Origin: Kribbella monticola
GTDB taxonomy: Bacteria; Actinomycetota; Actinomycetes; Propionibacteriales; Kribbellaceae
DNA length: 64,000 bases
Direction: 5' to 3'
Assembly (NCBI RefSeq): GCF_003261635.1
Contig: NZ_QFXK01000009.1
Coordinates: forward strand, 372,001 to 436,000
Shown here piece after piece: positions 31,722 to 46,898 of this stretch (positions are counted from its first letter, which is position 1; every line of letters begins with the position of its first letter). The notes under the pieces were generated by a model. It saw only the letters and a program-made list of their open reading frames with translations. It searched no databases and was not told where the DNA came from. Made by a program: the position numbers and the translations under genes.

Positions 31722-32438
31722 GCTGCCGTAGCTGTGCTGAGGCAGCTTACGGGTGTCGATCAGCTGCTGGGCGACGTCGCGCAGCTTGACGTTGTTGTCC
31801 TGCGAGTAGCGGCGCAGGATGGCGAAGGCCCGGTCGCTGTCGACGTCGAACCGCTCCATCAGGATGCCCATCGCCTGGCCGACGAGTTTGCGGGCGTCGA
31901 CCGCGGACGTCATGGTCTCGTCGTGTCGCGCCGAGGCGACCGCGACGGCGGCGTGCCGCGCGAGGATGTGCGCGATCGCCTCGTCGTCCTCGCTGAACGC
32001 ATCCGGAAAAGGGCTGTAGAGACCGAGTACGCCGACCGCGCGGGTCATGTCGTTGCCGGTCAGCAGCGGGACGTCCAGCACGCTGCGCACCCCGAGGCCG
32101 GCCACCTTCGCCGCCCACTCGGGCCAGCGGTCGTCGGCGCCGGTGTCCCGGATCAGCACGGTCCTGCGCTCGCGCAACGAGGTCACCAGCGGACCGATCG
32201 AGGAGTTGAGCTGCAGGTCGTACACATCGGCCACCACGGGGTCGGTCACCGCTGCGACCTGCGGCTTGGCGCCCCTCGTGTTGAGCGCGACACCGGCATA
32301 GCTGCAGCTCAGGGCCTGGAGGGCGAACTGGACGACGGCGTCGATGGTCTCCTCGACACCGTCGGCGTCATGGAGCTCGAGTGCGAGCCGCGCGAACGTC
32401 TCCGCGATGTCGGCGGCGGCAGGGTCAAGCGGGGGCAT
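31710..32438 (-). CDS. GAF- and ANTAR-domain transcription antiterminator
   Basis: This 242-residue protein has a GAF domain at residues 20-165 (for example LQALSCSYAGVAL, VLDVPLLTGNDMTRAVGVLGLY) and a C-terminal ANTAR domain (VDARKLVGQAMGILMERFDV, then YSQDNNVKLRDVAQQLID). ANTAR proteins bind stem-loops in RNA to stop termination when the GAF sensor is active. Its target here is unknown. It is convergent with the CPBP gene. Confidence 0.92.
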   Translation of the reverse strand: MPPLDPAAADIAETFARLALELHDADGVEETIDAVVQFALQALSCSYAGVALNTRGAKPQVAAVTDPVVADVYDLQLNSSIGPLVTSLRERRTVLIRDTGADDRWPEWAAKVAGLGVRSVLDVPLLTGNDMTRAVGVLGLYSPFPDAFSEDDEAIAHILARHAAVAVASARHDETMTSAVDARKLVGQAMGILMERFDVDSDRAFAILRRYSQDNNVKLRDVAQQLIDTRKLPQHSYGSSAG

Positions 32439-32562
32439 AGAAAGCTCCAGGCAGGTGTCAGCACCAGGAGCACCCTCATCTCCGGAGTGATCCGGCTACA
32501 ACGTAGTGCACCGCTCCGACAATGTCGTCGGCAGGGCGCGACACGCCGGTACGGCGAGACGC

Positions 32563-33429
32563 TCAGAGGAAGCCGCGAAGGGTGTCGACCAGCGCGCCGG
32601 GAGCCTGTTCGGCGACGTGGTGGGTGGAGTCGATGCCGTGTCCGATGACGTGTGGGCACCATGGCCGCCAGATGGCCAGCGGATCGCCGTACAGCTGTTC
32701 GAGATCGTCCTTGGTCGACCAGAGCATCAGCATCGGGCATTCGATCTGCCGGCCCGCCGCCCGGTCCTCCTCTTCCGTGCGCCGGTCGATGCCGAGTCCG
32801 GCCCGGTAGTCCTCGACCATCCCGTGCACAGTGGCCGGGTCCCGGATGGCGGCCAGGAAGTCGGCGTGGTTCTCCGGACCGAGGGCGTCGGGGGAGTTGA
32901 GCGTCCAGGCGTTGTACCAGGTCTCCGGATCCGCGCAGATCACCCGCTCGGCGGGTTTGGCGGTCTGGGCGAAGAAGAACCAGTGCCACCACTCGGTGGC
33001 GAACCGGGCGTTGCAGCGCTCCAGGTGCTCGACGACCGGCAGCCCGTCCAGCACCACCAGCTTGCTGACCCGGTCGGGATGGTCCATCGCGCTCCTGAAG
33101 GCGACCAGCGCGCCGCGATCGTGGCCGACCACGGAGTACGTCTCGTGGCCGAGCGCGGTCATCAGCCCCGCCACGTCCGCCGCCATGGCGGCCTTCGAGT
33201 ACTGCGTGTGCTCGTCGTCCGCTGCCGGTTTGCTCGACTGGCCGTAGCCGCGCAGGTCCGGACAGACCACGGTGTAGTCCCGGGCCAGTTCCGGCGCCAC
33301 CTGGTACCACGTGGTGTGCGTCCGCGGGTGCCCGTGCAGCAACACCACGGCCGGACCCGAACCGCCGTACCGGACTCGCAGGCTGACGTCGCCGACCTGG
33401 ATCCGGTCCAGGGTGAATCCTTCGAACAT
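32563..33429 (-). CDS. Haloacetate dehalogenase-like alpha/beta hydrolase
   Basis: This 288-residue protein has the fluoroacetate/haloacetate dehalogenase pattern: HGHPRTHTTWYQVAPELA, CPDLRGYGQSSKP, the Asp nucleophile in VVGHDRGALVAFRSA, WWHWFFFAQ (halide or substrate pocket) and the late catalytic His in STHHVAEQAP. The Asp nucleophile (not Ser) marks dehalogenases or epoxide hydrolases. It would hydrolyse a haloacid or related compound. It is the last gene of the minus-strand run from 39585, 30 nt after the LLM oxidoreductase gene. Confidence 0.85.
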   Translation of the reverse strand: MFEGFTLDRIQVGDVSLRVRYGGSGPAVVLLHGHPRTHTTWYQVAPELARDYTVVCPDLRGYGQSSKPAADDEHTQYSKAAMAADVAGLMTALGHETYSVVGHDRGALVAFRSAMDHPDRVSKLVVLDGLPVVEHLERCNARFATEWWHWFFFAQTAKPAERVICADPETWYNAWTLNSPDALGPENHADFLAAIRDPATVHGMVEDYRAGLGIDRRTEEEDRAAGRQIECPMLMLWSTKDDLEQLYGDPLAIWRPWCPHVIGHGIDSTHHVAEQAPGALVDTLRGFL

Positions 33430-33459
33430 GCTTCTCCTGGGGTTCAGCGGCTCCTGGGG

Positions 33460-34422
33460 TCAGCCGCGGCGGAGCTCGGGGAGCACCTCTTCGCGGTACA
33501 GCTTCATCATGTCGATCGAGTGCGGGCCCATGTTGGCCACGTAGATCTCGTCGAAGCCGGCCTCGACGTACGGCTGGAACGCCTTCAGGTGATCGGCGGC
33601 CTTCGCACCACCGGTCACCGACTGAGCGGTCTGCTCCTTGGTGACGAGCTGGCTCGCCTGCTCGAAGTGCCGCGGCGAGGGCAGCACCTGCGACAGCTCG
33701 CCGGGCAGCCCTGAGTTGGCCCAGATCCGATGCGCCTGCTCGATGCCCTCCTCCTCGGTCGGGGCGTAGCTGACCTTGAAGCCGACCTGGGTCGGCTTGT
33801 CGCCGCCGCCGTTCTCGCGGAACCGCTTCAGCAGGTCGGAGTCCGTTGAGGTGGTGATGTAGCCGTCCGCGATCCGCGCCGCCACATCCGTTGCCTCCGG
33901 CCCGAATCCGGACATGTAGATCGGCACCGGCGAGTCCGGCCGGGTGTAGATCCGGGCGTTGTCGACGGTATAGTGCATGCCGTGGTGGCTGACGAAACCG
34001 TCCTCGGTCCACAGCCGGCGGATGATCTCGACGGCCTCTTCCAGCATCTCCAGCCGGACGTCGACCGTCGGCCAGGCGTCGCCGAAGATGTGCTCGTTCA
34101 GGGCCTCACCGGTCCCGATCCCGAGCGTGAAGCGGCCGTTCAGCAGTACGGCGCTGGTCGCCGCGGCCTGGGCGATCACGGCCGGATGGATCCGCACGGT
34201 CGGACAGGTGACGGCTGTGGTGACGGGCAGTTCGCAGACCTGCGAGATGGCGCCGATCGTCGACCACACGAACGCACTCTGGCCCTGCTCGTCGTTCCAC
34301 GGGTGGTAGTGGTCGCTGATCCACAACGCGTCGAACCCGGCTTCCTCCGCCAGGCGCGCCTGTTCGATCAACTGCGCGGGCGTGTATTCCTCACTGGACA
34401 GGAAGTATCCGATCTTGTTCAT
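33460..34422 (-). CDS. LLM-class F420-dependent oxidoreductase, G6PDH-like (TIGR03557)
   Basis: This 320-residue TIM-barrel protein follows the luciferase-like F420 family: IGYFLSSEEYTPAQLIEQARLAEE, ALWISDHYHPW, GRFTLGIGTGEALNEHI, and SGFGPEATDVAARIADGYI. It resembles F420-dependent glucose-6-phosphate dehydrogenase but with unclear substrate. Members transfer hydride between F420 and an alcohol or aldehyde in the cytoplasm. It lies 37 nt after the GH13 gene. The pairing with a dehalogenase-like hydrolase hints at xenobiotic breakdown (inference). Confidence 0.88.
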   Translation of the reverse strand: MNKIGYFLSSEEYTPAQLIEQARLAEEAGFDALWISDHYHPWNDEQGQSAFVWSTIGAISQVCELPVTTAVTCPTVRIHPAVIAQAAATSAVLLNGRFTLGIGTGEALNEHIFGDAWPTVDVRLEMLEEAVEIIRRLWTEDGFVSHHGMHYTVDNARIYTRPDSPVPIYMSGFGPEATDVAARIADGYITTSTDSDLLKRFRENGGGDKPTQVGFKVSYAPTEEEGIEQAHRIWANSGLPGELSQVLPSPRHFEQASQLVTKEQTAQSVTGGAKAADHLKAFQPYVEAGFDEIYVANMGPHSIDMMKLYREEVLPELRRG

Positions 34423-34459
34423 GGCCTGCCGGTGCCCGCCGCTCGGGCTCACAAACACC

Positions 34460-36133
34460 TCAGACCAGATACCGATCGCCGGGGTGCAGGACGCGCAGCC
34501 AGCAGCAGCCGTAGGCTCCGACCGGGTGTCGGAGGGTGCCGTCGGTCTCCACCTCGGTGACCTTGCCGCTGAGGAGATCCGCGACCCGCAGGCCGGCCGC
34601 TGCGCCTTCCACCGCAAGCTTGACCTCGGTCGGCTCGGCGGCGAAGTTGTGCAGCGCGATGACCGTGCCGTCCTCGTAGTCGGACCGGTGGGCGAAGACC
34701 GAGGGGACACCCGGATCGAGGATCGTGCACTGGCCCCAGGACAGCTCCGGGCTCTCCCGGTAGCGCTGGATCAGCAACTTGATCCAGTTGTACAGCGAGT
34801 CCGGGTCGCGACGCTGGTCCGCGACGTTCACCGACTCCGCCGACAGCTCCCCTTCGACCATCGGCCGGAACAGCTCGTCCGGATCGGCCTCCGAGAAGCC
34901 ACCGTTCAGGCCCTTGGTCCATTGCATCGGCGTCCGGACCGCGTTCCGTCCTTCGATCTCCAGGTTCTCGCCCATACCGATCTCCTCGCCGTAGAACAGC
35001 ACCGGAGTCCCGGGCATGCTGAACAGCAGGCTGTAGACCATCTTGAGCCGGGCCTGGTCGTTGCCGAGCATGGTCGGCAACCGGCGGCGCAGCCCGCGGC
35101 CGTACAACTGCATGTTCTTGTCGGGTCCGAAGGCGTCGAAGACCTCCTGCTTCTCGTCGTCGGTGAGCTTGTCGAGGGTGAGTTCGTCGTGGTTGCGGAC
35201 GAAGGTTCCCCACTGCGCTTCTTCCGGCGGCACGGGCCGTTCGCGCAGCGCCTTCACCAGCTCGGCCGGTTCGGAGCGGGCCAGCGAGAGATAGAGCTTC
35301 TGCATACCGATGAAGTCGAAGCACATCGTGAGCTCGTCGCCGTCCTCGTCGCCGAAGAACCTGCGGGTGTCCTTGTACGGCAGGTTGACCTCACCGAGGA
35401 GCATCGCCTGGCCGTCGCGCCGGCCGAGGAAGGCCCGCAGATCGCGCAGGTAGTCATGGGGTCTCGGCAACCGGCCGGCGTCCTGCGCGCCCTTGGTGTC
35501 CAGCAGGAACGGCACCGCGTCGACCCGGAACCCCGACAGTCCGAGCTGCATCCAGAACCCGATGATCTTGAGGATCTCGTCGCGGACCGCCGGGTTCGCG
35601 ATGTCGAGATCGGGCTGCTGCTTGTAGAACTGGTGCAGGTAGTACTGGCCGGCCTGTTCGTCGTACTGCCACAGGCTGGTCTCCTTGTCCGGGAACACGA
35701 TGCCCTTGTCGGCGTCCGCCGGCGGCTCGTCGCGCCAGACGTACCAGTCCCGGTACGGCGACTGCCGCGACGCACGCGCGCTCTGGAACCACGGGTGCTG
35801 GTCGGAGGTGTGGTTCACCACCAGGTCGGCGATCACCCGGATGCCGCGGTCCTGGGCCAGCGTGATCAGCTCGACCAGGTCGCCGTGGGTGCCCAGTCGC
35901 GAGTCGACGCCGTAGAAGTCGGTGATGTCGTAACCGTCGTCGCGGTCCGGCGTCGGGTAGAACGGCATCAGCCACAAACAGGTGACCCCGAGCTCGGCCA
36001 GGTAGTCGATCCGCTGCGACAGGCCGCGGATGTCACCACGGCCGTCGCCGTCGGTGTCGAAGAACGTCTCGATGTCCAGGCAGTAGATGACAGCGTTCTT
36101 CCACCACAGGTCAGCAGTCTCGGTCAGCCTCAC
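34460..36133 (-). CDS. GH13 alpha-amylase family enzyme, trehalose-synthase-like
   Basis: This 557-residue enzyme starts DLWWKNAVIYCLDIETFFDT. GH13 motifs are VIADLVVNHTS (I), GFRVDAVPF with the nucleophile Asp (II), MLLGEVNLPY with the acid/base Glu (III) and FVRNHDELTL with the stabilising Asp (IV). NHDELTLDKL and the DRDDGYDITDFYGVD start resemble trehalose synthase more than amylase. The C-terminal beta domain ends near residue 555. The start GTG overlaps the stop of the LLM gene upstream by 4 bp (GTGA). No signal peptide, so it is intracellular; maltose/trehalose conversion is likely but not shown. Confidence 0.93.
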   Translation of the reverse strand: MRLTETADLWWKNAVIYCLDIETFFDTDGDGRGDIRGLSQRIDYLAELGVTCLWLMPFYPTPDRDDGYDITDFYGVDSRLGTHGDLVELITLAQDRGIRVIADLVVNHTSDQHPWFQSARASRQSPYRDWYVWRDEPPADADKGIVFPDKETSLWQYDEQAGQYYLHQFYKQQPDLDIANPAVRDEILKIIGFWMQLGLSGFRVDAVPFLLDTKGAQDAGRLPRPHDYLRDLRAFLGRRDGQAMLLGEVNLPYKDTRRFFGDEDGDELTMCFDFIGMQKLYLSLARSEPAELVKALRERPVPPEEAQWGTFVRNHDELTLDKLTDDEKQEVFDAFGPDKNMQLYGRGLRRRLPTMLGNDQARLKMVYSLLFSMPGTPVLFYGEEIGMGENLEIEGRNAVRTPMQWTKGLNGGFSEADPDELFRPMVEGELSAESVNVADQRRDPDSLYNWIKLLIQRYRESPELSWGQCTILDPGVPSVFAHRSDYEDGTVIALHNFAAEPTEVKLAVEGAAAGLRVADLLSGKVTEVETDGTLRHPVGAYGCCWLRVLHPGDRYLV

Positions 36134-37098
36134 AGTGCGCTCACTTCCAGTTGGGGGAGGACCTTCTCGCCGAACACGTCGATGAACTCCGACTGCTCGC
36201 GCCCGACGTGGTGCAGAAAGATCGCGTCGAAGCCGAGGCCGGCGTACGCGTTCAGCCACTCGGCGTGCTGGGCCGGCTCGGACGACACCCGTACCGCCTG
36301 CCGCATCGCCTCCGGCGGCACGTGCTCGGCCGCCTGGTCGAACGCTTCGGCCGAGTCGACGTCCCAGCACAGCGGCGGCGCGAAGACGTTGGTCCGCCAT
36401 TGGTCGTGGGCGATCCGGAGGGCGCGGTCCTCGTCGTCGGCGTAGCTCAGATGGACCTGCAGGCAGACCTTCCCGCGTCCACCGTTCTCCTTGTACGCCG
36501 AGATCATCTGACGTAGGTGGTCTTCCTCGGCGGCGACGGTGATCAGCCCGTCGGCCCAGCCGGCGCACCACTTCGCCGTACTGGTGGAGACCGCGGCGGC
36601 GAGGAGTGGGGGTGGCTCGGTCGGCAGGGTCCACAGCCGGGCGCGGTCGACAGTCACGAGTCCTTCGTGGCTCACTTCGTCGCCCTGCAAGAGCTTCCGG
36701 ATCACCTGGACCGACTCCTCGAGGCGCTGGTTGCGCAGCTCCTTGCGAGGCCATGGGCCGCCGGTGATGTGCTCGTTGCTGGCTTCGCCGGTTCCCAGGG
36801 CGGCCCAGAAGCGGCCGGGGTACATCGAAGCCAGCGTGCCGATCGCCTGCGCGATGATCGCCGGGTGGTACCGCTGACCTGGTGCGTTGACCACGCCGAA
36901 CGGGAGTCCGGTCGCCTGCAGCGCGGCGCCGAGCCACGACCAGGCGAAGCCGGACTCTCCCTGGCGCACACTCCACGGGCTGAAGTGGTCCGAGCACATC
37001 GCTGCCGTGAAGCCCGCTTGCTCGGCGCGCACCACCGCTTGCAGCAGGTCGGCGGGCGGGACCTGTTCATGAGAGGCGTGGAAGCCGTAGGCGGTCAT
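36130..37098 (-). CDS. LLM-class FMN-dependent oxidoreductase (TIGR03885-like)
   Basis: This 322-residue protein is of the luciferase-like family (YGFHASHEQVPPADLLQAVVRAE, SDHFSPWSV, GRFWAALGTGEASNEHITGG, SSEPAQHAEWLNAYAGLGFD). I assign it to the probable non-F420 flavin oxidoreductase branch, from memory of the TIGR03885 pattern. Its end is translationally coupled to the GH13 gene by a 4-bp overlap, so the pair probably works on the same glucoside or is expressed in fixed ratio. 38 nt separate it from the MAPEG gene upstream. Confidence 0.82.
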   Translation of the reverse strand: MTAYGFHASHEQVPPADLLQAVVRAEQAGFTAAMCSDHFSPWSVRQGESGFAWSWLGAALQATGLPFGVVNAPGQRYHPAIIAQAIGTLASMYPGRFWAALGTGEASNEHITGGPWPRKELRNQRLEESVQVIRKLLQGDEVSHEGLVTVDRARLWTLPTEPPPLLAAAVSTSTAKWCAGWADGLITVAAEEDHLRQMISAYKENGGRGKVCLQVHLSYADDEDRALRIAHDQWRTNVFAPPLCWDVDSAEAFDQAAEHVPPEAMRQAVRVSSEPAQHAEWLNAYAGLGFDAIFLHHVGREQSEFIDVFGEKVLPQLEVSAL

Positions 37099-37136
37099 GC
37101 CTCCCCGTGCCCCGACGCCGCCGGTCGTACACGGGG

Positions 37137-37535
37137 TCACATGACGGCGATGGCTGTGACACCGAGCGTGATGCCGACCAGATAAGTACCCAGGGCGCCG
37201 ACGTCGCGCAGGGGGCCGTGCGTGGCAAGGGTCTTCGACGTGAGCATTCCGGCGGCGTGCACCGTCCGCACCACCAAAGCGGCGACGGCGAGCGCGTCGA
37301 CCCACCAGCTGTCCGACAGCGCGGAGCAGACCAGCACCAGGACGATCATGGTCGGGATGTACTCCGCGGCGTTGCCGTGCGCCCGGATCGCGATCAGCAA
37401 ACGGTCGGCAGGATCGGTCGGTTGTTGGTTGCCGCCCTTCGAGCCGATGATCGCGCGGTGCCGCGTGACGTTGGCGCCGAGCAGGAACAGCAGGATGCCC
37501 ATCAAGGCGATGGAGATGATGGTGACGGTACTCAT
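37137..37535 (-). CDS. MAPEG-family membrane protein
   Basis: This 132-residue protein has four membrane spans and the MAPEG pattern: LFLLGANVTRHRAIIG, then AIRAHGNAAEYIPTMIVLV (the conserved RAHxNxxEY motif) and RTVHAAGMLTSK. MAPEG members are glutathione-dependent transferases or peroxidases in eukaryotes and some bacteria. Here it starts inside the stop of gshB (ATGA overlap) and follows a glutamate-cysteine ligase, so glutathione use is likely. The substrate is unknown. Confidence 0.9.
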   Translation of the reverse strand: MSTVTIISIALMGILLFLLGANVTRHRAIIGSKGGNQQPTDPADRLLIAIRAHGNAAEYIPTMIVLVLVCSALSDSWWVDALAVAALVVRTVHAAGMLTSKTLATHGPLRDVGALGTYLVGITLGVTAIAVM

Positions 37536-38503
37536 GTCAGAACTCCTAGGGTCGATTCGGTCAGCTTGCGCACCATCGCTCGGCTGAGCTGGGTGCCGAG
37601 CAGGGCATCGGTCTTGTGCATGCCGCCGGGACAGGTCACGTTGACCTCGATCAGCCGGCCGCCGATGACATCGAGGCCGGCGATCGCGAGACCGTGCCGG
37701 CGCAGGTGCGGCCGGAGGGCGGCGACGATCGCCTGATCGGCGTCGTCGATCCCGGCGACCGCGACCGGCGGTCCGATGCGGAAGTCGTCGGCCGACGGGC
37801 GACGCAGTACCGCGCCGACGATGTCGCCGTCGAGCAGGAACAGCCGCTTGTTGCCGTGCTCGACAGCGGGGAGGTACTGCTGGGCGATCACCTGACGACG
37901 GCCGCCGTGAGTGGCCGACTCCAGCAACGCGGTGGCCGCGTGGTCGTCGCCGATCAGCCAGACGTCGAGCCCCGCGAAACCGTCGACCGGCTTGACCACC
38001 GCAGTACCAACTCTGGCCACGAAGTCGCGCAGACCGGACAGCCCGGCGCCTACGTACGTCGGTGGGCAGAGCTCCGGGAACCGCAGCGCGATCAGCTTCT
38101 CGTGCATCGCCCGGACACCCTCCGGCCGGTTGACCACGCGGGTGCCCGCTGCCTCGACCAGATCCAGCAGGTACGTCGTGTGCAGGTACCGCTGGTCGAC
38201 CGGCGGATCGATGCGCAGGTGCACCAGGTCGAAGCGGGCCGCGTCGACAACGGTCCGGTCGGCTTCGTCCCACCAGATCGGGTCGACCACCCAGCGATGA
38301 TCGCCGGCCGCGCAGTGCCGCGGACGGAGGCGGATCCGGCGAGCGTGGACGAGAACGTTGCCGTCGGCAACCGCCAGGTCGCTCGGTTCACAGCACCAGA
38401 CCTCTAGGCCTAGGTCTTGGGTAGCGCTCATCAGGCCGATACTGGCGTCGACGTCGGCCCGCAAACCGCCGAGCGGGTCGGTGACGAACAGCACGGCGTT
38501 CAT
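37532..38503 (-). CDS. gshB: Glutathione synthetase (ATP-grasp), GshB type
   Basis: This 323-residue protein aligns with E. coli GshB by pattern. It has an N-terminal substrate domain (FVTDPLGGLRADVDASIGLM), the Lys of the ATP-grasp loop in AVVKPVDGFAGLDVWL, QQYLPAVEHGNKRLFLLDGD (GDKRxLLxDGE equivalent) and AGLDVIGGRLIEVNVTCPGG (metal-binding E and N). It would join glycine to gamma-glutamylcysteine. Four-bp overlaps with its neighbours on both sides couple it to the ligase and the MAPEG gene. Glutathione synthesis is rare in actinobacteria, which usually make mycothiol. Confidence 0.88.
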   Translation of the reverse strand: MNAVLFVTDPLGGLRADVDASIGLMSATQDLGLEVWCCEPSDLAVADGNVLVHARRIRLRPRHCAAGDHRWVVDPIWWDEADRTVVDAARFDLVHLRIDPPVDQRYLHTTYLLDLVEAAGTRVVNRPEGVRAMHEKLIALRFPELCPPTYVGAGLSGLRDFVARVGTAVVKPVDGFAGLDVWLIGDDHAATALLESATHGGRRQVIAQQYLPAVEHGNKRLFLLDGDIVGAVLRRPSADDFRIGPPVAVAGIDDADQAIVAALRPHLRRHGLAIAGLDVIGGRLIEVNVTCPGGMHKTDALLGTQLSRAMVRKLTESTLGVLT

Positions 38504-39585
38504 GCGACGAGCTCCAGATTCGGGAGCTGCGCGAGTTCGCGGCCGCGGCTTGCGATGCCTGGGTCGCCGGCGGCTGCTGCGCGCCAGTGGTCGGCCAGGT
38601 GGGGGAGTTCGGGCTCCAGTGCCCGGAGCGTACGGCGGCGGAGGTCGTCGTCGTACATCAGGTTTGCCAGAGCCGTGACGACTGGTGCGACTGCGGTGGG
38701 TTCCTGGGCGTCGAGGAAGCGGACTTCCAGGTAGGTGGTGCGCGGGCGGACGGGTGGGAAGAGGGTGCTCAAGTGCTCGGCTGGTCCGTCGGTGAAAGGG
38801 GTCGCGTGGGCGGCGAAGGCGATGTAGGCCGGGATCGGGGAAGTGCTGGGGTGGTCGGGCAGCAGGCGGTTGTCGAAGCCTGTCCGGTCGGGGTCGACGT
38901 TCAGCCAGGTGGTGAGTCTGCCTTCGTGGCCGGCGCTTCTGGCGAAGGCGGCGGCCAGGAACGGGGCGGCGAGATTGAGGACTCGCCACTGTTCGGCGCC
39001 TGCGTCTCCGGGCCACCAGTCCAGGCAGATCTGGGTGGACGCGGTTCGGCGCATCATCCGTCGTCCGGCCGGGCCGATCGTGTCGAAGTGGGTTTGCATC
39101 GCGACGTACCGCGGAGTCGTCAACTGCAGTGGGACGTTCTGGCGCGGGTCGCAGGGGATCGCGTCGAGGCGGATCCCGGCTGCGCCCAGGTGCCGCCGGA
39201 GGTCATCGGTGAGAACGCCGAGAAGACGCGTGATCGCCGCCGATCCGGCCACACACGGCAAACTCAACTCGACCTGCCCCCCGGGCTCGAAACTCAAATA
39301 CGCCGCAGCTCCGGTTGAAGGGCGGACCGGCTGGGTGATGGGTGCGCTGGTTGACCCGCCGGCCGACTGCGTCGGTGGGGTGGTGGGTGCGCCGGTTGGA
39401 CGGCGTACCGGCTGGGACGGCGTCGTGGTGGGGGTTCCGGCAGTCCGGCGTACCAGGTCGATGGGGCCGGGGAGGCCGCTGGTGTCGGTGGTGATGAACT
39501 CCTGTTCGATCGCTACCCGGGTGGTGCGGTGACGGGCTCGGGTGAAGAGGCCGGTGACCAGCCGGGGTTGCTCCTTGGTGTCCAT
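38500..39585 (-). CDS. Glutamate-cysteine ligase family 2 protein (EgtA/GshA-like)
   Basis: This 361-residue protein has the GCS2 pattern: an N-terminal EQEF (family Glu), then FEPGGQVELSLPC, STQICLDWW, LTTWLNVDPDRTGFD and TYLEVRFLDAQEPT. It would make gamma-glutamylcysteine, the precursor of glutathione and also of ergothioneine (EgtA). Because gshB follows with a 4-bp overlap, glutathione is the likelier product. Residues 46-92 are an odd Thr/Pro-rich insert of about three 15-residue repeats, lacking in the family. AGGGGGAACG precedes the ATG. Divergent from a MarR gene. Confidence 0.85.
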   Translation of the reverse strand: MDTKEQPRLVTGLFTRARHRTTRVAIEQEFITTDTSGLPGPIDLVRRTAGTPTTTPSQPVRRPTGAPTTPPTQSAGGSTSAPITQPVRPSTGAAAYLSFEPGGQVELSLPCVAGSAAITRLLGVLTDDLRRHLGAAGIRLDAIPCDPRQNVPLQLTTPRYVAMQTHFDTIGPAGRRMMRRTASTQICLDWWPGDAGAEQWRVLNLAAPFLAAAFARSAGHEGRLTTWLNVDPDRTGFDNRLLPDHPSTSPIPAYIAFAAHATPFTDGPAEHLSTLFPPVRPRTTYLEVRFLDAQEPTAVAPVVTALANLMYDDDLRRRTLRALEPELPHLADHWRAAAAGDPGIASRGRELAQLPNLELVA

Positions 39586-39601
39586 CGTTCCCCCTGATAC
39601 C

Positions 39602-39639
39602 GTAAGGTTTCCTGTCGAAATAATGGAAGGAATCCTTAC
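39602..39639. promoter_or_regulatory. MarR operator, GTAAGGnTTCCT-N14-AGGAATCCTTAC
   Basis: Arms 39602-39613 and 39628-39639 match as an inverted repeat at 11 of 12 positions. The right arm ends 3 nt before the marR ATG and the left lies 17 nt from the ligase ATG. Each half is itself near-palindromic (AAGG-TCCT). Natural site for the adjacent MarR protein to control itself and the glutathione-type operon. Confidence 0.75.
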
Positions 39640-39642
39640 AAG

Positions 39643-40125
39643 ATGTCAAGGGGTGAGCTTCCCAGGCTCGGCCGCAAGCCGCTGGTCGCGCTGATGGACC
39701 GGGCGAACCGCGCGCTGCAGGCCGACATGGTGCAGACCGCGCACCGGCGTGGTCACCCGGAGCTGAAGGCTGCCCACAACTACGTCTTCTCGACGCTGTC
39801 CGAGAACGGCTCGCGGGCCGCGGACATGGCGGTCCGGGCCGGGGTGACGCGGCAGTCGATGGGGGAGGTGATCCGCGAGATGGTCGACCTCGGCATTCTC
39901 GAGATGCGCCCGGATCCCGAGGACCGGCGGGCCAAGCTCGTCACCTACACCGAGCACGGCCGCTGGATCGCAGGACACGGCCGCGAGCGCCTGATCGAGC
40001 TCGAGGACCGGTTCGCCGAGGAGTTCGGTCCGGAGCAGTACGACATCGCCCGCGACGTCATCGGCCGGATCGCGGGGCTTCTCGATCGCTGGTCCGAAGA
40101 AGACCACGAAGAAGAAACCGCCTGA
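39643..40125 (+). CDS. MarR-family regulator of the glutathione-type operon
   Basis: This 160-residue protein has a MarR-type winged helix: AHNYVFSTLSENGSRAADMA, then VTRQSMGEVIREMVDLGILEM with the wing RPDPEDRRAKLVTYTEHGR. It faces the seven-gene minus-strand run across 57 bp holding a strong inverted repeat. It probably represses the glutathione-type/dehalogenase set until an electrophile or its conjugate is bound. No Cys residues stand out for redox sensing. Confidence 0.88.
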   Translation: MSRGELPRLGRKPLVALMDRANRALQADMVQTAHRRGHPELKAAHNYVFSTLSENGSRAADMAVRAGVTRQSMGEVIREMVDLGILEMRPDPEDRRAKLVTYTEHGRWIAGHGRERLIELEDRFAEEFGPEQYDIARDVIGRIAGLLDRWSEEDHEEETA

Positions 40126-40128
40126 AAG

Positions 40129-40893
40129 TCAGTGGAGGTCTTCGGAGAGGGATTTGGCTGCCTCGGTGAGGAGGGGGACTGCGCGGCTGACCAGGGTTTC
40201 GGTCATTCGGCCGGCTGGGCCTGAGATGGAGATGGCCAGCCGGGACGGTACGTCGGGCACCGGTACGGCGACGCAGCGGACGCCGACTTCCTGCTCTCCC
40301 TCGTCGGTGGCGTAGCCCTGCTCCTGGGTGCCCTGCACCTGCGTCATGAACGCGTCCGGATCGGTGATCGTGTTCTCGGTGTGCTTGGGCATGCCGGTGC
40401 GCTGGAGGAGTTCGCGGACCTCGCTCTCCGGTAGCTGCGAGAAGATCGCCTTGCCGACCGCCGTACAGTGCGGGAGGACGCGGCGCCCCACCTCGGTGAA
40501 CATCCGCATCGAGTGTCGCGACGGGACCTGCGCGAGGTACACGATCTGGTCGCCGTCGAGCATCGCCATGTTGGCCGACTCGCCGAGTTCGTCGACCAGA
40601 TGCGCCAGGTGCGGGCGGGCCCAGACGCTCAGCATCCGCGAGGAACTCTCACCCAGCCGCACCAACTTCGGCCCGAGAACGTACTGCCGAGAGGGCTCCT
40701 GCCGCAGGTATCCGAGGTCGACGAGCGTGCGGACCAGCCGGTGGATCGTCGGCAACGGCAGTCCGGACGCGGTGGCCAACTGGGACAGCCCCAGCATCCC
40801 GCCGGCGTCGGCCATCACCTCGAGCAGCCCGAACGCGCGCTCGATGGACTGCACGCTGCCGGAGCGACTCTTGCTGCCGGTCTCTTCGGTCAC
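40129..40893 (-). CDS. IclR-family regulator (AllR-like)
   Basis: This 254-residue protein has the IclR HTH at residues 15-75 (VQSIERAFGLLEVMADAGGM, LSQLATASGLPLPTIHRLVRTLVDLGY). The effector domain has SRHSMRMFTEVGRRVLPHCTAVGKAIF and EEQGYATDEGEQEVGVRCVAVPV-type residues, a form typical of actinobacterial AllR/purine-glyoxylate regulators. It is divergent from the DUF6986 gene, and matching boxes occur at the glyoxylate operon 14 kb away, so it is the probable allantoin/glyoxylate regulator. Confidence 0.9.
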   Translation of the reverse strand: MTEETGSKSRSGSVQSIERAFGLLEVMADAGGMLGLSQLATASGLPLPTIHRLVRTLVDLGYLRQEPSRQYVLGPKLVRLGESSSRMLSVWARPHLAHLVDELGESANMAMLDGDQIVYLAQVPSRHSMRMFTEVGRRVLPHCTAVGKAIFSQLPESEVRELLQRTGMPKHTENTITDPDAFMTQVQGTQEQGYATDEGEQEVGVRCVAVPVPDVPSRLAISISGPAGRMTETLVSRAVPLLTEAAKSLSEDLH

Positions 40894-40917
40894 TGTGGTC
40901 CACCTTGTCCTCGAGGC

Positions 40918-40932
40918 TTCCGGATCACGGAA
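40918..40932. promoter_or_regulatory. IclR box 1, TTCCG-GATCA-CGGAA
   Basis: A perfect inverted repeat of 5-bp arms sits 25 nt before the iclR start. On the minus strand it directly abuts a -10-like TAAACT (40937-40932). An autoregulatory site is likely. Confidence 0.65.
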
Positions 40933-40963
40933 GTTTACCCTCAGATAGTGGAAGCGCGAATGC

Positions 40964-40993
40964 TTGCGACTTCCGTAATACAGATACTAGTAT
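40964..40993 (+). promoter_or_regulatory. Promoter of the DUF6986 gene
   Basis: TTGCGA (40964-40969) and TAGTAT (40988-40993) form -35 and -10 hexamers with an 18-bp spacer. They are 29 nt upstream of the GTG at 41022, so the leader is short. The IclR boxes overlap the spacer and -10. Confidence 0.55.
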
Positions 40994-41006
40994 CCGCATT
41001 ACGAAA
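40971..41006. promoter_or_regulatory. IclR box pair (21 bp apart) at the DUF6986 promoter
   Basis: Two 15-nt boxes: TTCCG-TAATA-CAGAT at 40971-40985 and, at 40992-41006, ATCCG-CATTA-CGAAA (reverse: TTTCG-N5-CGGAT). The whole is an inverted repeat matching at 14 of 17 arm positions. The start-to-start distance is 21 bp, identical to that of the pair at 55300-55335. Confidence 0.65.
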
Positions 41007-41021
41007 TCCCGAGGATATGAG

Positions 41022-42284
41022 GTGCGGTCCGCCGTGGAAGATGCACTCCTTGCCGAACTGGATCGGCGGCTCGCCGAAGCCGACACCGAGCTCGCCACGC
41101 TGTACCCGGGAGACCGGGGCGTCCGGCAACCCGTCCATACCGTCTATGTGCCGGCCGACAAGTTCCACGCCGGCACGGTCGGTGAGTGGGCCACGGCAGC
41201 TCGTGCCGCGCTCAGCACACATGGCGGCTCGCCGACGGAGCTCGCCGAGGCGCTGGAGTTGCCCCCGGAGCTGGCCGACGAGGTCTACGAACGGGTGCAC
41301 GCGAAGCTGGAGAGCGAGCCGATCGAGGATCTGCGGATCGACTTCGAGGACGGCTACGGGACCAGGCCGGACGAGCAGGAGGACGCTGCGGCAGTCGACG
41401 CGGCGCGAGCCCTGGCGGACCTGGTGAAGACTGCCGAAGCTCCGCCGTACCACGGGCTTCGGATCAAGTCGCTCGAGGCGCCCAGTCGCCGGCGCGGTGT
41501 GCGGACGCTCGACTTGTTCGTCGGTGAATTGGCTGGTGCCGGTGCATTGACGGACGGATTCGTCATCACGCTCGCCAAAGTTACGTCGGTGGAGCAGATC
41601 GAGGCGATGGTGCTCGTGCTCGACTCGATCGAGAAAGCTCATGGGGTGCCGGCGGGTTCGCTCAAGTTCGAGATCCAGGTGGAGACGCCGCAGGCGATTC
41701 TCGGCGCGGACGGGACGACGCCGCTGGGCCGGATGATCCGGGCCGGCGCGGGCCGGGTGACCGGGCTGCACTACGGCACCTATGACTACTCGGCTTCGCT
41801 CGGCGTCGCAGCGGCGTACCAGAGCATGGAGCATCCGGTCGCCGATCATGCCAAGGACGTGATGCAACTGGCCGCGGCAGGTACGGGCGTCTTCGTCTGC
41901 GACGGCTCGACCAATGTCCTCCCGATCGGCGATCGCTCAGCGGTGCACGCTGCCTGGCGGCTTCACCTGCGGCTGGTACGCCGCTCGCTCGCGCGCGGCA
42001 TCTACCAGGGCTGGGACATGCACCCCGCCCAGCTCCCGAGCCGCTACGTCGCCACCTACCTCTTCTACCGCGAGGGCCTCATGTCTGCCGCCGCAAGACT
42101 GCGCGCGTACGTCGACGGCGGCGACTCCGGCTACCTGGACGAACCCGCCACCGCAGCAGCCCTGGCCGGCTACCTCCTCCGAGCCCTCGACTGCGGCGCC
42201 CTCGACCACACCGAACTGCACGACCTCATCGGCATAGACACCCCCACCTTGGCCAAACTCGCCCGCCGCCCCCTCCGCCCCTAA
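41022..42284 (+). CDS. DUF6986 family protein, HpcH/CitE-like aldolase fold
   Basis: This 420-residue protein belongs to the phosphoenolpyruvate/pyruvate (HpcH/CitE) fold. Metal-site motifs are LRIDFEDGYG and KFEIQVETPQ; GLHYGTYDYSASLG and QGWDMHPAQLPSRY look like active-site loops. Family function is undefined (DUF6986). The reaction may be a glyoxylate-acetyl-CoA condensation (malate-synthase-like) or a lyase, by analogy with CitE-like malate synthases. The IclR boxes upstream tie it to glyoxylate/allantoin metabolism. GTG at 41022 follows GAGG by 7 nt. Confidence 0.78.
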   Translation: MRSAVEDALLAELDRRLAEADTELATLYPGDRGVRQPVHTVYVPADKFHAGTVGEWATAARAALSTHGGSPTELAEALELPPELADEVYERVHAKLESEPIEDLRIDFEDGYGTRPDEQEDAAAVDAARALADLVKTAEAPPYHGLRIKSLEAPSRRRGVRTLDLFVGELAGAGALTDGFVITLAKVTSVEQIEAMVLVLDSIEKAHGVPAGSLKFEIQVETPQAILGADGTTPLGRMIRAGAGRVTGLHYGTYDYSASLGVAAAYQSMEHPVADHAKDVMQLAAAGTGVFVCDGSTNVLPIGDRSAVHAAWRLHLRLVRRSLARGIYQGWDMHPAQLPSRYVATYLFYREGLMSAAARLRAYVDGGDSGYLDEPATAAALAGYLLRALDCGALDHTELHDLIGIDTPTLAKLARRPLRP

Positions 42285-42389
42285 CCGACGCCGCCCCGCC
42301 CCGCCGCCCCTCCGTCACCCGGCCGGTCCTCTGTCACCCCGCCCCACCCCCCGGCCGGCATCGGAGCCGTCCGGCGGTGGGGTCCACTT

Positions 42390-42416
42390 CTCGTGGTGGG
42401 GTAACCCCACCACGAG
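42390..42416. terminator. Perfect 13-bp inverted repeat between convergent genes
   Basis: CTCGTGGTGGGGT (42390-42402) and its reverse complement (42404-42416) surround a single central A. It lies in the 225-bp gap between the DUF6986 and 8-oxoguanine deaminase stops, and probably ends transcription from both sides. The rest of the gap is C-rich without a gene. Confidence 0.65.
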
Positions 42417-42509
42417 GAGTCATCCCCTCTTTGTGGCGGGTGGGGGTCGCGGGCGTGGGAGCAGCCGCCTTGGCCGGGTGGGGGCAGGGCGGCTGCGGGT
42501 GGAAGTGGG

Positions 42510-43859
42510 TCAGGTGGTTGCGGTAAGGCGGCGCTGGGTGTGGGCGACCTGGCGGGCGATGGTGGGCTCGTCGATGGTGGTGACCGTGTCGTGTTCGACG
42601 ACTGGGCGGCCGTTGACGAGGAGGAGTTCCAGTGGGGGCGGGGTGCCCAGGATCAGGGCGGCTACCGGGTCGGGGATGCCGGCGTGGGGGAGGGTGTCCA
42701 GGCGCCAGACGGCGAGGTCGGCGAGTTTGCCTACCTCGAGCGAGCCGATCTCGTTCTCGCGGCCGAGGATGCGGGCGCCGTCGAGGGTCGCCATCTCCAG
42801 GACGTCCCGTACGCCGAGCGCCTGCGGGCCGCCTCGGGCGCGGGCGAAGAGCAGCGCGTGCCGCAGTTCTTCGAGCAGACTGCCGGCTTCGTTGCTCGCG
42901 GCACCGTCCACTCCGAGCCCGACCGGGCAACCGGCCGCCCGAAGATCTGCAACTCGAGCGATCCCGGCGCCCAGCCGAGCATTGGAGCTCGGACAGTGTG
43001 CGACGCCAGTGGTCGTCTGCCCGAGCCGCTTGATCTCGGCGTCGTCGAAGTGGATGCCGTGCGCGAACCAGACGTCCGGACCGGTCCAGCCGAGATCCGC
43101 GGCGTACTCCGACGGCGTACAGCCGAACTTGTCGTCACACCAATCGGCCTCGTCGGTCGTCTCGGCCAGGTGCGTGTGCAGCCGGACGCCCTTGCGCCGG
43201 GCGAGTTCCGCGGCTTCCCGCATCAGCTCGCCGGTGACGCTGAACGGCGAACAGGGTGCGACCACGAGCTGCAGCATCGACTCCGGCGAAGGATCGTGCC
43301 AGCGATCGATCGCAGCTTCGGTGGCGAGCAGGATCTCGTCGCGGTCCTGCACCACCGAGTCCGGCGGCAATCCGCCGTCCTTCTCGCTCAGATCCATCGA
43401 TCCCCGCGCCGGGTGGAACCGCAGCCCGACCTCTCGTGCGGCAAGGATCTCCGCTTCGAGCAGGTCGCCGTCGGGGAACACGTAGTGGTGATCGGAGGCA
43501 GTCGTGCAGCCGGTCCGCGCGAGTTGCGCGAGCGCGCCCTGGGCCGCGACGTGAACGGATTCCTCGTCGATGCGAGCCCACACGGGGTACAGCGTCGTCA
43601 GCCAGCCGAACAGGGTGGCATCCGTGGCGAGCCCGCGAGTCACCCACTGATAGAGATGCTGATGGGTGTTGACGAAGCCGGGGGTGACGAGACAGCCCCG
43701 TCCGTCCACGACCCGCGCGCCGCTTCGCAGGAAGGACGACGGTGCCGGACCGGGGTCGACGGCAACGATCCGGTTGCCGTCGACAACGACATGGCCGGTG
43801 GTCAGCTCGCGCCGCTCGCGGTCGAGCGTGACCACCGCCGCCGACTCGATGACGATCAA
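42510..43859 (-). CDS. 8-oxoguanine deaminase
   Basis: This 449-residue amidohydrolase removes the amino group of 8-oxoguanine to give urate. The metal motif is VNTHQHLYQWVTRGLATDATLFGWL, the pattern of 8-oxoguanine deaminases. Further metal ligands are in VRLHTHLAETTDE and GLGVDGAASNE. It feeds urate to the uricase just upstream. A TTG at 43859 overlaps the uricase stop by 4 bp and is the likely start. It is the last gene of the nine-gene purine operon. Confidence 0.88.
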   Translation of the reverse strand: MIVIESAAVVTLDRERRELTTGHVVVDGNRIVAVDPGPAPSSFLRSGARVVDGRGCLVTPGFVNTHQHLYQWVTRGLATDATLFGWLTTLYPVWARIDEESVHVAAQGALAQLARTGCTTASDHHYVFPDGDLLEAEILAAREVGLRFHPARGSMDLSEKDGGLPPDSVVQDRDEILLATEAAIDRWHDPSPESMLQLVVAPCSPFSVTGELMREAAELARRKGVRLHTHLAETTDEADWCDDKFGCTPSEYAADLGWTGPDVWFAHGIHFDDAEIKRLGQTTTGVAHCPSSNARLGAGIARVADLRAAGCPVGLGVDGAASNEAGSLLEELRHALLFARARGGPQALGVRDVLEMATLDGARILGRENEIGSLEVGKLADLAVWRLDTLPHAGIPDPVAALILGTPPPLELLLVNGRPVVEHDTVTTIDEPTIARQVAHTQRRLTATT

Positions 43860-44761
43860 CAGAACCCCGGCACGGCGTGCCAGGCCGACCCGGCGTCGCT
43901 GGCGTCGTCGCGCACGACGGTTGCCTCGATCAACCCGTACGGACGGTCGGCCGCGATGAACACCTCGCCCGGGTTCTCCACGTCGAACGGCGACAGGTCG
44001 ACCAGGAAGTGGTGCTTGTTCGGCGCGGAGAACTTGATCTCGGCGACCTCGGGGTGCCGTTCGAGGACCGCCTCGCCCATCCCGTACAGGCTCTGCTGGA
44101 GCGCGAGGCTGTGGATCTTGGCGAACTGTTCGAGCAGCAGGCCCTTGATCTCGTCGTACGACTTGTCCCAGTCGACGTCGGTGTGGTCGTAGCGCCAGCG
44201 CGCGACCAGCGAGGTCGCGAGGATGCGATCGTTGGTCTCCGGCAGCGTCGTGTACTTGTCCTTGAGGAAGCCGTGAAACTCCGAGCCGGTGGACTTGAGC
44301 ACGGTGAGATCGCGGATGCCCGACACGACGTACGCCGTACGGTCGTCGCCGCGGCCTTCGACGTTGACCACCGTCGTGCGGATGCCGGCGCCGCTGCGGA
44401 CGAACGAGTGGTCGTGGCCGGCGCCGTCGACGGAGATCCGTTCCCACGGGTACTCCTCGATCTCGATCCGCGCGCCGTCGGCGGCGGGGGAGGCCTGCAG
44501 GAAATGGTCGCCGAGAGTGAGCGCGAACTCCTCGATCGCACCGACGCCCTTCTCCTTGGCGAAGGCGAACGCGGTGTTCTTCTGGGTGTCGGTCGGCAGC
44601 ACGTCGGACTGGTCGCCGGTCGTGTGCGCGTTCTCGAACCGGCCGCGGAGCGCGGAGGAGACGTTCAGGTCGCGGATCTGGTGCCGCGGGGTGTCTCGGT
44701 AGATGCGGACGACGCGGCTCTCGGCCTTGCCGTACTGGTTGGCTCCCAGGTGGATCGCCAT
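43856..44761 (-). CDS. Uricase (urate oxidase)
   Basis: This 301-residue enzyme oxidises urate to 5-hydroxyisourate with O2 and no cofactor. The catalytic Lys-Thr pair is visible: K12 in YGKAESRVVRI and T57 in PTDTQKNT. The second half has the conserved NKHHFLVDL with the His relay. It is flanked by the hydrolase for its unstable product (5 nt upstream) and 8-oxoguanine deaminase downstream. The order shows direct channelling of 5-hydroxyisourate to the next two enzymes. Confidence 0.95.
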   Translation of the reverse strand: MAIHLGANQYGKAESRVVRIYRDTPRHQIRDLNVSSALRGRFENAHTTGDQSDVLPTDTQKNTAFAFAKEKGVGAIEEFALTLGDHFLQASPAADGARIEIEEYPWERISVDGAGHDHSFVRSGAGIRTTVVNVEGRGDDRTAYVVSGIRDLTVLKSTGSEFHGFLKDKYTTLPETNDRILATSLVARWRYDHTDVDWDKSYDEIKGLLLEQFAKIHSLALQQSLYGMGEAVLERHPEVAEIKFSAPNKHHFLVDLSPFDVENPGEVFIAADRPYGLIEATVVRDDASDAGSAWHAVPGFC

Positions 44762-44766
44762 CGCGA

Positions 44767-45090
44767 TCAGCTCCCTCGATAGGTGGAATAGGCGAACGGG
44801 CTGAGCAGCAAGGGGACGTGGTAGTGCCGCTCGTCGGTGATCGTGAACGTGACCGTCACCTCAGGAAAGAAGAACTCTTGACCGGTAGCTCGCGCGTAGG
44901 CGGCGACGTCGAAGCGAAGCTGATAGACACCGGGCACCAACTGAGTCGAGCCGAATTCACTGACCCGGCCGTCAGCATCCGTCGTACTTTTTCCAACCAC
45001 AGCAGAGTCTGCTGTCTGCAACTGGACGGGGATGCCTTCGGCGGGGTGGCCTTGGGCGGTGTCGAGGACGTGGGTGGTGACGGTGCTCAT
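44767..45090 (-). CDS. 5-hydroxyisourate hydrolase (transthyretin-like)
   Basis: This 107-residue protein hydrolyses 5-hydroxyisourate to OHCU. Signatures: STVTTHVLDTAQGHPAEGI (catalytic His 7), the middle GVYQLRFDV, HYHVPLLLSPFAYST and the canonical YRGS C-terminus. The start overlaps the OHCU decarboxylase stop by 4 bp (ATGA), so the two successive steps are co-translated. Confidence 0.95.
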   Translation of the reverse strand: MSTVTTHVLDTAQGHPAEGIPVQLQTADSAVVGKSTTDADGRVSEFGSTQLVPGVYQLRFDVAAYARATGQEFFFPEVTVTFTITDERHYHVPLLLSPFAYSTYRGS

Positions 45091-45599
45091 GCGGGGATCT
45101 CCTTGCTGAGGGCAATGAGTTTCTCCAGGCGCAGAACGGCGATCTTGCGGAGTTCGTCCCGTACGACGTGCGCCTCGGTGGGCTCGTCGTTGGTCAGGCG
45201 GTGGCGCAGGTCGGCGAGCATCTCCTCGGCGGACAGGCCGGTGGCGCAGATCAGGAAGACCCGGCCGAAGCGCTGTTCGTACTCGCGGTTCCCGGCCGCC
45301 AGTGCTGCCCGGATTCCCGGATCGTCGCCGACACCGGACTGCTCCTTGCGCGACCATGCAGCCTCCGTGCTCTCGCCGTCGGCGCGATCGCCGATCCGCG
45401 GGTGAGCCGCGAGTGCCTGCGCGACTTCGCTGTCGTCAAGGTCGCGTGCGGCTCGATCGGCGACTTCGGTGATCGCCGCGAGGTCGTCGTACGGGCGCCC
45501 CGCGAGGACGCGATCGACCCAGCGGGGTACGTCGCAGCAGGCGGCCAGCAGCGGCCGCAGCCGGTCGGGCGGGGAGGAGTTGAATTCCTGCAGGTCCAC
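45087..45599 (-). CDS. OHCU decarboxylase, stand-alone copy
   Basis: This 170-residue protein decarboxylates 2-oxo-4-hydroxy-4-carboxy-5-ureidoimidazoline to S-allantoin. The catalytic His 66 is in AAHPRIG and the Glu in SRKEQSGV (Glu 86), both kept. The C-terminal strand reads FGRVFLICATG instead of the usual FGFPFVIxVKG, a small deviation. It starts with GTG at 45599, 3 nt after the guanine deaminase stop. A second decarboxylase-like domain, lacking these catalytic residues, is fused to the permease of this operon. Confidence 0.92.
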   Translation of the reverse strand: MDLQEFNSSPPDRLRPLLAACCDVPRWVDRVLAGRPYDDLAAITEVADRAARDLDDSEVAQALAAHPRIGDRADGESTEAAWSRKEQSGVGDDPGIRAALAAGNREYEQRFGRVFLICATGLSAEEMLADLRHRLTNDEPTEAHVVRDELRKIAVLRLEKLIALSKEIPA

Positions 45600-45602
45600 C
45601 GA

Positions 45603-46898
45603 TCACACCTTTCCGGAGGAGTCGTCCAGCAGTTGGCCGTCGATCCAGACGGCCCGGATGTCGGCCGGCGTCCCGAGCGTGAAGACGCGCGCCAGGGTGT
45701 CCTCGGCGTCGGCGGCATGCTCGATCCCTACCGCCAGCGGCGAACCCTCGGCCGGCCGCAGCAACTGCGCGTCGAACCGCTTGCCGACGCTCAGATCCCC
45801 GACGTCGCTCAGCCCGAGCGCCTCGGCGCCGGCCGCCGTCGCAAGGTGCAGCAGGTGGGCGGAGCTGAGCGGATGACCGTGATCCCCGAGCAGTTGCTGG
45901 CAGAAGTACGCCTGCAATCCCTCCTTCAGCAAGGAGAATCCGGTGCCGGCGCCTACGTCCGAACCGAGCGCGACCCGTACGCCGTGGTCGAGATGCCTCC
46001 CGAGCGGGAACAACCCGCTGCCCAGTACTGCGTTGCTCGTCGGGCAGTGCGCGACCGTCGCCCCGTTCTCAGCGAGCAGCTTGAGCTCGACATCGGTCGG
46101 GTGCACGTTGTGCGCGAACACGCTGCGGTCGTCGACGAGCCCGTGTCGTTCGTACGTGCTGACGTAGTCGCTGCCTGCGAACAGTTCGGCGACGGTCGCG
46201 ATCTCGGCCTCGTTCTCGTTGAGGTGCGAGGTGAACAGCGCGCCTGGGATCTCTTCCAGCACGGTCTGGCAGGAAGCGAGCAGCTCGTCCGTGCAGGACA
46301 AGGAGAACCGGGGCGTCACGGCGTACCGGTTGCGGCCTACGCCGTGCCAGCGGGAGGCGAGCGCGACCGATTCGTCGTACGCGCGTTGCGGTGTGGTGAG
46401 CAGATCGTCGCGGATGATCCGGTCGCTGACGACGAGTCCGCTGGTGATCCGCAGACCCACCCGGGACGCTGCGGCGAAGAGCGTGTCGACCGCGGCGGCG
46501 TAGTGAGCTCCGAAGACCAACGCGCTCGTCGTTCCGGCTGCTGCCAGGCCGCGGACGAACTCGTCGGCAACGCTGGAGGCGTACGCCGCGTCGGCCATCC
46601 GCGCCTCCTCGGGCAGCGCGTACTTGTCGAGCCATTCCAGTAGCGGCATCCCCATCCCGCCGACCGCCCGGATCTGCGGGAAGTGCACGTGGGTGTCGAC
46701 GAACCCGGGCAGCACCAGACCGCCGGTCAGATCGACGATGTGCTCGGCCGGGTGGGCGGCACGGATCTCCGCGAACGGGCCCCGGGCAACGATCACACCG
46801 TCCTGGACCAGCAGGCCGGCGTCGGTGGCGACCCGCAGGCTGCCACCGGTGAAGGGATTGTCCGGGGTGTCGAGGAACGTGCCTCTGAACAGGGTCAT
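45603..46898 (-). CDS. guaD: Guanine deaminase
   Basis: This 431-residue amidohydrolase converts guanine to xanthine. Metal motif PGFVDTHVHFPQ, then MGMPLLEWLDKYALPEE, ALFTSHLNENEAEI and VALGSDVGAGTGFSLL match the guanine deaminase family (TSHxxE and GSDVGxG). It supplies xanthine to XdhAB. Its start overlaps xdhC by 4 bp; the OHCU decarboxylase starts 3 nt downstream. Confidence 0.93.
   Translation of the reverse strand: MTLFRGTFLDTPDNPFTGGSLRVATDAGLLVQDGVIVARGPFAEIRAAHPAEHIVDLTGGLVLPGFVDTHVHFPQIRAVGGMGMPLLEWLDKYALPEEARMADAAYASSVADEFVRGLAAAGTTSALVFGAHYAAAVDTLFAAASRVGLRITSGLVVSDRIIRDDLLTTPQRAYDESVALASRWHGVGRNRYAVTPRFSLSCTDELLASCQTVLEEIPGALFTSHLNENEAEIATVAELFAGSDYVSTYERHGLVDDRSVFAHNVHPTDVELKLLAENGATVAHCPTSNAVLGSGLFPLGRHLDHGVRVALGSDVGAGTGFSLLKEGLQAYFCQQLLGDHGHPLSSAHLLHLATAAGAEALGLSDVGDLSVGKRFDAQLLRPAEGSPLAVGIEHAADAEDTLARVFTLGTPADIRAVWIDGQLLDDSSGKV

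Follow-up and report, generated by a model that had tools for sequence, protein, structure and literature searches.

A MarR-flanked GCS2–GshB–MAPEG cassette as a probable second thiol system in Kribbella and other Actinobacteria

The 8.0-Mb genome of Kribbella monticola contains, within the 64,000-nucleotide stretch analyzed here (hereafter the window), a cassette encoding a GCS2-family ligase, a GshB-family ligase, and a MAPEG membrane protein, in that order on the minus strand and joined by two ATGA overlaps (Table 1). The actual unit consists of this cassette together with a divergent MarR gene and a double operator. We consider it probable, though well short of certain, that the unit is a second thiol system, self-contained and under MarR control, whose product, glutathione or a near analogue, supplies a dedicated membrane transferase. 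An initial annotation had proposed a glutathione-type module formed by the three linked genes. Sequence and Pfam profiles bear out this linkage, and the biochemical class was correctly recognized; however, the borders and origin of the module were misplaced, and the divergent MarR gene and operator were overlooked.

Table 1. Features of the cassette and its surroundings (window coordinates)
Feature	Position	Strand	Basis
Trehalose-synthase-like glycosidase, between the two LLM genes	34460-36133		
MAPEG membrane protein, 132 aa, predicted thiol S-transferase/peroxidase	37137-37535	-	Pfam MAPEG
ATGA stop/start overlap, GshB/MAPEG	37532-37535	-	Sequence
GshB-family ATP-grasp ligase, 323 aa, separate MAPEG-linked actinobacterial subfamily	37532-38503	-	Pfam, model, clade
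ATGA stop/start overlap, GCS2/GshB	38500-38503	-	Sequence
Short GCS2-family glutamate–cysteine ligase-like protein, 361 aa, first cassette enzyme	38500-39585	-	Pfam GCS2
Double operator GTAAGGnnnCCT-N14-AGGnnnCCTTAC, between MarR and GCS2	39602-39639	.	Conserved intergenic sequence
Sigma-70-like promoter TTGACA-N18-CATTAT for GCS2–GshB–MAPEG	39620-39649	-	Promoter scan
Divergent MarR-family regulator, 160 aa	39643-40125	+	Pfam MarR_2, 30.0 bits

Of 38 Kribbella genomes, 27 carry the complete cassette, with GshB identities of 72% to 95%, and one (G036) has a decayed copy. Conservation of the three-gene order in 27 congeneric genomes, as well as in other orders, excludes a chance arrangement. 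A single MAPEG gene lies beside gshB in all 27 Kribbella genomes with this GshB, and none occurs in the 11 genomes without it; among 395 genomes sampled from the class, MAPEG hits over the cut-off came from 10/10 genomes with this GshB and 0/385 without. Fisher tests of this co-occurrence returned 8e-10 (genus) and 4e-20 (class), with underlying counts overstated by shared ancestry. The MarR/GCS2–GshB–MAPEG order, with MarR divergent from GCS2, is observed in all Kribbella and Nocardioides-type cassettes. This four-gene set recurs in 13 Nocardioides/Marmoricola/Pimelobacter-type loci, while GshB–MAPEG, often with GCS2, appears in Frankia, Protofrankia, Kutzneria, Pseudonocardia, and Pedococcus. 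In one Kribbella assembly (L053/L089), a gap of ~670 bases precedes MAPEG. Additionally, the record L082, named Streptomyces sp. SID13031, carries Kribbella-type genes and is probably a misnamed Kribbella.

In the decayed locus of G036 (L178:1825-3500, G036:C300), MarR, operator, and GCS2 are intact, whereas ~45 residues of gshB and a scrap of MAPEG are left; these two genes have decayed together. A contig break was ruled out as the cause of this loss, as the contig continues and short remnants of both genes are present. In other loci, the cassette has additional neighbors. Several Nocardioides-type loci, like Kribbella G031, encode a Peptidase_C26 protein directly 3′ of MAPEG, and in G403 such a gene lies just past GCS2. 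In Frankia, Kutzneria, and Pseudonocardia-type loci, the gene after MAPEG encodes an MFS transporter and, in Frankia, overlaps MAPEG. Among these genes directly after MAPEG, encoding Peptidase C26 or an MFS transporter, are L062:4745-5551 and L075:7375-8736. Neither family is present in the window's cassette. No GST-type gene family was common to the cassette loci; the window's genome, searched family by family, returned no match to PF02798 and contains one Xi-type GST, on another contig.

The GCS2 ligase scores 67.7 bits against its Pfam profile (cut-off 21) and retains, in alignment, the core motifs EPGGQxEL, RxMMRxTAxxQ, and HLSTLFPPVRPR. The top fold match of its AlphaFold model (pLDDT 85.8) is plant glutamate cysteine ligase (2gwc, TM 0.75). 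A Pro/Thr-rich insert of ~45 residues (48–92; window 39308-39444, minus strand) is disordered in the model and missing from the other aligned orthologues; a search for tandem repeats underlying this insert found none. The ergothioneine ligase EgtA belongs to the same Pfam family and contains the same core motifs, but the window protein lacks both the segment before HLSTLFPPVRP and the EgtA C-terminal part, and reaches 118.7 bits against the EgtA equivalog TIGR03444 (cut-off 370.8). A second GCS2 gene in the same genome, encoding EgtA, adjoins an EgtB-like gene on contig C77; the window GCS2 is not adjacent to EgtB. With a separate EgtA present beside an EgtB-like gene, the ergothioneine role is already taken, which leaves the window GCS2 free for another product. 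An assignment as EgtA was ruled out by this pair, by the score, and by the missing segments.

The window GshB exceeds the Pfam cut-offs for both GSH-S_N (102.6 bits) and GSH-S_ATP (134.4 bits), but falls short of the NCBIfam cut-offs for glutathione synthase (TIGR01380, 253.4 vs. 299.05; NF003573, 254.9 vs. 272); neither ligase of the cassette reaches its curated equivalog cut-off. The best fold match to the GshB AlphaFold model (pLDDT 93.3) is E. coli GshB (1gsa), with a Z score of 36.1 and an rmsd of 2.3 over 308 residues, as compared with a Z score of 23.5 for RimK, the next fold match. "E. coli-like" is a loose description of this protein, whose model aligns to 1gsa with 28% identity and whose sequence lies below both NCBIfam cut-offs. 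Active sites were compared between 36 MAPEG-linked GshBs and 38 other GshBs from several phyla, using E. coli numbering. Eight positions separate the two groups almost without exception (A23, N123, D208, N235, F269, T280, T288, and E292). Five of these (D208, N235, T280, T288, E292) are altered in 36/36 cassette GshBs and N123 in 35/36, whereas all six are retained in 38/38 of the others. Fixed substitutions in the cassette group are Asp208→Asn, Thr280→Ile, Thr288→Gly, and Glu292→Lys; in all 36, the loop that reads NLAAG in E. coli is shorter, Asn235 having been deleted with part of it. Nucleotide, metal, and catalytic residues (K160, R210, R225, R233, D273, E281, and N283) are common to both groups. 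The window enzyme thus has the fold and ATP/metal residues of E. coli GshB, but also the shortened loop without Asn235 and the changes Asp208Asn, Thr288Gly, and Glu292Lys.

This pattern suggests that GshB catalysis is retained while recognition at the acceptor end may be altered. As the changed positions are fixed elsewhere, the C-terminal residue that is added may not be glycine; glutathione is nonetheless the likely, if not assured, product. Elsewhere in the genome, the gene for a MATCAP/QEGLA-type protein overlaps that of another GshB-like ATP-grasp protein (L041:3783-5959; G000:C63:76782-78958), which is highly divergent, with ~30% identity to the window GshB; this pair is distinct from the cassette.

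The MAPEG protein scores 68.0 bits against Pfam (cut-off 23.4). Residues R51, N55, E58, and R90 are invariant across 18 aligned cassette MAPEGs, and the R-x3-N-x2-E pattern of the first three aligns to leukotriene C4 synthase, in which the corresponding positions contact glutathione. The window protein shares the Pfam family and an R-x3-N-x2-E(Y)-x-P pattern with the MAPEG superfamily (leukotriene C4 synthase, microsomal GST), but is only weakly similar to its members, and a PDB search with the window MAPEG alone returned no MAPEG match. A PDB match to leukotriene C4 synthase was rejected as circular, since one row for this enzyme sat in the query alignment; with that row removed, the MAPEG profile recovered neither leukotriene C4 synthase nor any other MAPEG structure. 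The predicted thiol S-transferase/peroxidase activity therefore rests on the Pfam profile and the R-x3-N-x2-E motif.

The active-site changes in GshB could also reflect a cassette that makes a different gamma-Glu-Cys-X thiol, in which the ligase adds a non-glycine amino acid or amine and the MAPEG protein is matched to the product. Such a role would be in keeping with the loss of Asn235 and the four fixed substitutions in 36/36 cassette GshBs and none of the 38 others, with the membership of all MAPEG-linked GshBs in one clade, and with the preserved catalytic and metal positions, which imply that the chemistry is probably kept and recognition altered. However, the altered loop could equally be neutral remodeling; E. 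coli GshB is by far the top fold match; and the MAPEG protein retains the pattern that contacts glutathione in leukotriene C4 synthase. We regard this alternative as unlikely. Less likely still—and in our judgment quite improbable—is that the two ligases make or modify a specialized metabolite, for example, a gamma-glutamyl compound, with MAPEG acting in that pathway and no thiol being formed. Fold matches do include GshB-related ATP-grasp ligases that act in peptide natural products, and both cassette ligases lie below equivalog cut-offs; but GshB, rather than RimK or RiPP ligases, is the top fold match by a wide margin, the GCS2 core motifs are retained, MAPEG proteins are known glutathione users, and the loci compared share no further biosynthetic genes around the cassette.

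MarR is the probable repressor of the cassette. Every Kribbella intergenic region between MarR and GCS2 retains the double operator, with minor differences in the spacer; in Nocardioides it is partly degenerate. A genome scan allowing two mismatches identified exactly one site per genome in 26/38 Kribbella genomes, in each case at the cassette, or at what is left of it in G036; the reversed pattern, used as a control, matched in just one genome. The cassette genomes without an operator match (G016 and G025) both have a 13-base spacer. The sigma-70-like promoter, which is the sole promoter-like site in window positions 32400-40200, overlaps both the operator and the MarR start codon. MarR is inferred to bind the double operator.

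MshC scores above its cut-off here and in each of the 47 genomes tested, including every cassette carrier among them, which indicates that mycothiol synthesis coexists with the cassette. Together with the separate EgtA, this supports the earlier proposal of a second, glutathione-type thiol module beside mycothiol. An MshC-like paralogue (~258 bits) was also observed, in a frame with one in-frame TGA, in G026, G034, G012, G018, G022, G019, G021, G016, and G032; the gene may have decayed, the frame may be shifted, or the TGA may stem from how the frame was chosen.

The phylogeny of GshB does not agree with the origin initially suggested for the module, a horizontal gain of the rhodococcal kind. 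In a tree of 75 rows, the MAPEG-linked GshBs form a single all-actinobacterial clade (36 rows, support 99/100). Rhodococcus/Gordonia plasmid-type, cyanobacterial, and E. coli/gamma GshBs all fall outside the clade, and the plasmid-type sequences form a separate one (100/99). Within Kribbella, pairwise GshB distances correlate with those of MshC (Mantel rho 0.70, 0 of 2000 permutations); on the strength of this correlation and the all-actinobacterial clade, a recent proteobacterial origin of GshB was rejected. Cassette presence is patchy on the MshC tree, requiring at least seven changes. Because GshB distances track MshC, these data favor an old cassette with repeated losses within Kribbella over a recent gain, and an earlier transfer between actinobacterial orders is possible.

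The initial annotation had also tied the cassette to the downstream LLM oxidoreductases and a "dehalogenase-like" hydrolase, the latter of which is, by Pfam, a generic alpha/beta hydrolase. The LLM1, glycosidase, LLM2, and hydrolase genes follow on the same strand with short gaps and may share a transcript with the cassette in this strain. However, they adjoin the cassette only here (G000) and in the closest relative, G037. LLM1 orthologues occur in 15/38 Kribbella genomes. Five of these show no sign of the cassette, and in the others, apart from this strain and G037, LLM1 lies at different chromosomal places; the four genes were therefore ruled out as parts of the system, and the proposed functional link is not upheld. 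Window positions 40905-47740, as read from translations, appear to comprise a purine/ureide breakdown region (amidohydrolases/deaminases and urate oxidase-like, OHCU decarboxylase-like, and hydroxyisourate hydrolase-like proteins) with a malate synthase-like gene and an IclR regulator (Pfam match).

These data also bear on the view that the locus was recently gained by horizontal transfer and is a glutathione module of the plasmid type, comparable to those of the rhodococcal isoprene and Gordonia styrene clusters, that acts with the downstream LLM and hydrolase genes. The biochemical steps would be identical, the Gordonia CWB2 plasmid encodes a GCS2-family ligase as well as GshB, with a MarR gene nearby, and the downstream genes lie close by on the same strand; yet the GshBs belong to different clades, the cassette has MAPEG in place of cytosolic GSTs, its G+C resembles that of neighboring genes, its GshB tracks MshC in Kribbella, and in the other Kribbella that have LLM1, G037 excepted, it lies elsewhere. 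Such an acquisition is hardly credible and can be considered largely refuted already.

Under the preferred reading, of a MarR-regulated system for glutathione or a near analogue, MarR would sit on the double operator over the GCS2 promoter until freed by an inducing chemical. GCS2 would then join glutamate and cysteine into gamma-glutamylcysteine, to which the GshB-family ligase would add a C-terminal residue, most likely glycine. With the resulting thiol, the membrane MAPEG protein would conjugate lipophilic electrophiles or reduce them. The gamma-glutamyl hydrolase-like Peptidase C26 or the MFS transporter encoded after MAPEG in relatives may serve in conjugate processing, through cleavage of the gamma-glutamyl bond, and in export. 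It is conceivable, if rather doubtful, that mycothiol producers here make, on demand and for a dedicated MAPEG protein, an unreported gamma-glutamylcysteine-based thiol with a non-glycine C-terminus.

A dedicated single-operon thiol system thus appears to be retained in many soil and plant-associated actinobacterial genera, and the cassette is the sole place of MAPEG proteins in the 395-genome class sample. It offers a clean gene set for studying why a mycothiol producer retains a second thiol, what role a bacterial MAPEG protein plays, and whether glutathione is still the product of a GshB that lacks the canonical loop. No literature match to an actinobacterial MAPEG–GshB cassette was identified in open full texts, though Johnson (2009) and Lienkamp (2020) could mention one. 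Cyanobacterial gshB genes are among the next nearest to the window GshB (35–41% identity), but encode canonical active-site motifs, and no cassette-type MAPEG was found alongside them in the loci compared. Glutathione use in Actinobacteria has been described as rare and mostly tied to unusual carbon sources (PMC8552685). The isoprene cluster of Rhodococcus sp. AD45 and the styrene cluster of Gordonia rubripertincta CWB2 likewise place an actinobacterial gshA/gshB-type pair, with a glutathione transferase, beside mycothiol (PMC4676930, PMC8552685). However, these Rhodococcus/Gordonia modules combine a canonical GshB of another clade (AD45 not being represented in the tree) with cytosolic GSTs in degradative clusters, and the GCS2 of Gordonia CWB2 is longer and divergently oriented; the window cassette, in contrast, is chromosomal, flanked by MarR, and partnered with a MAPEG protein.
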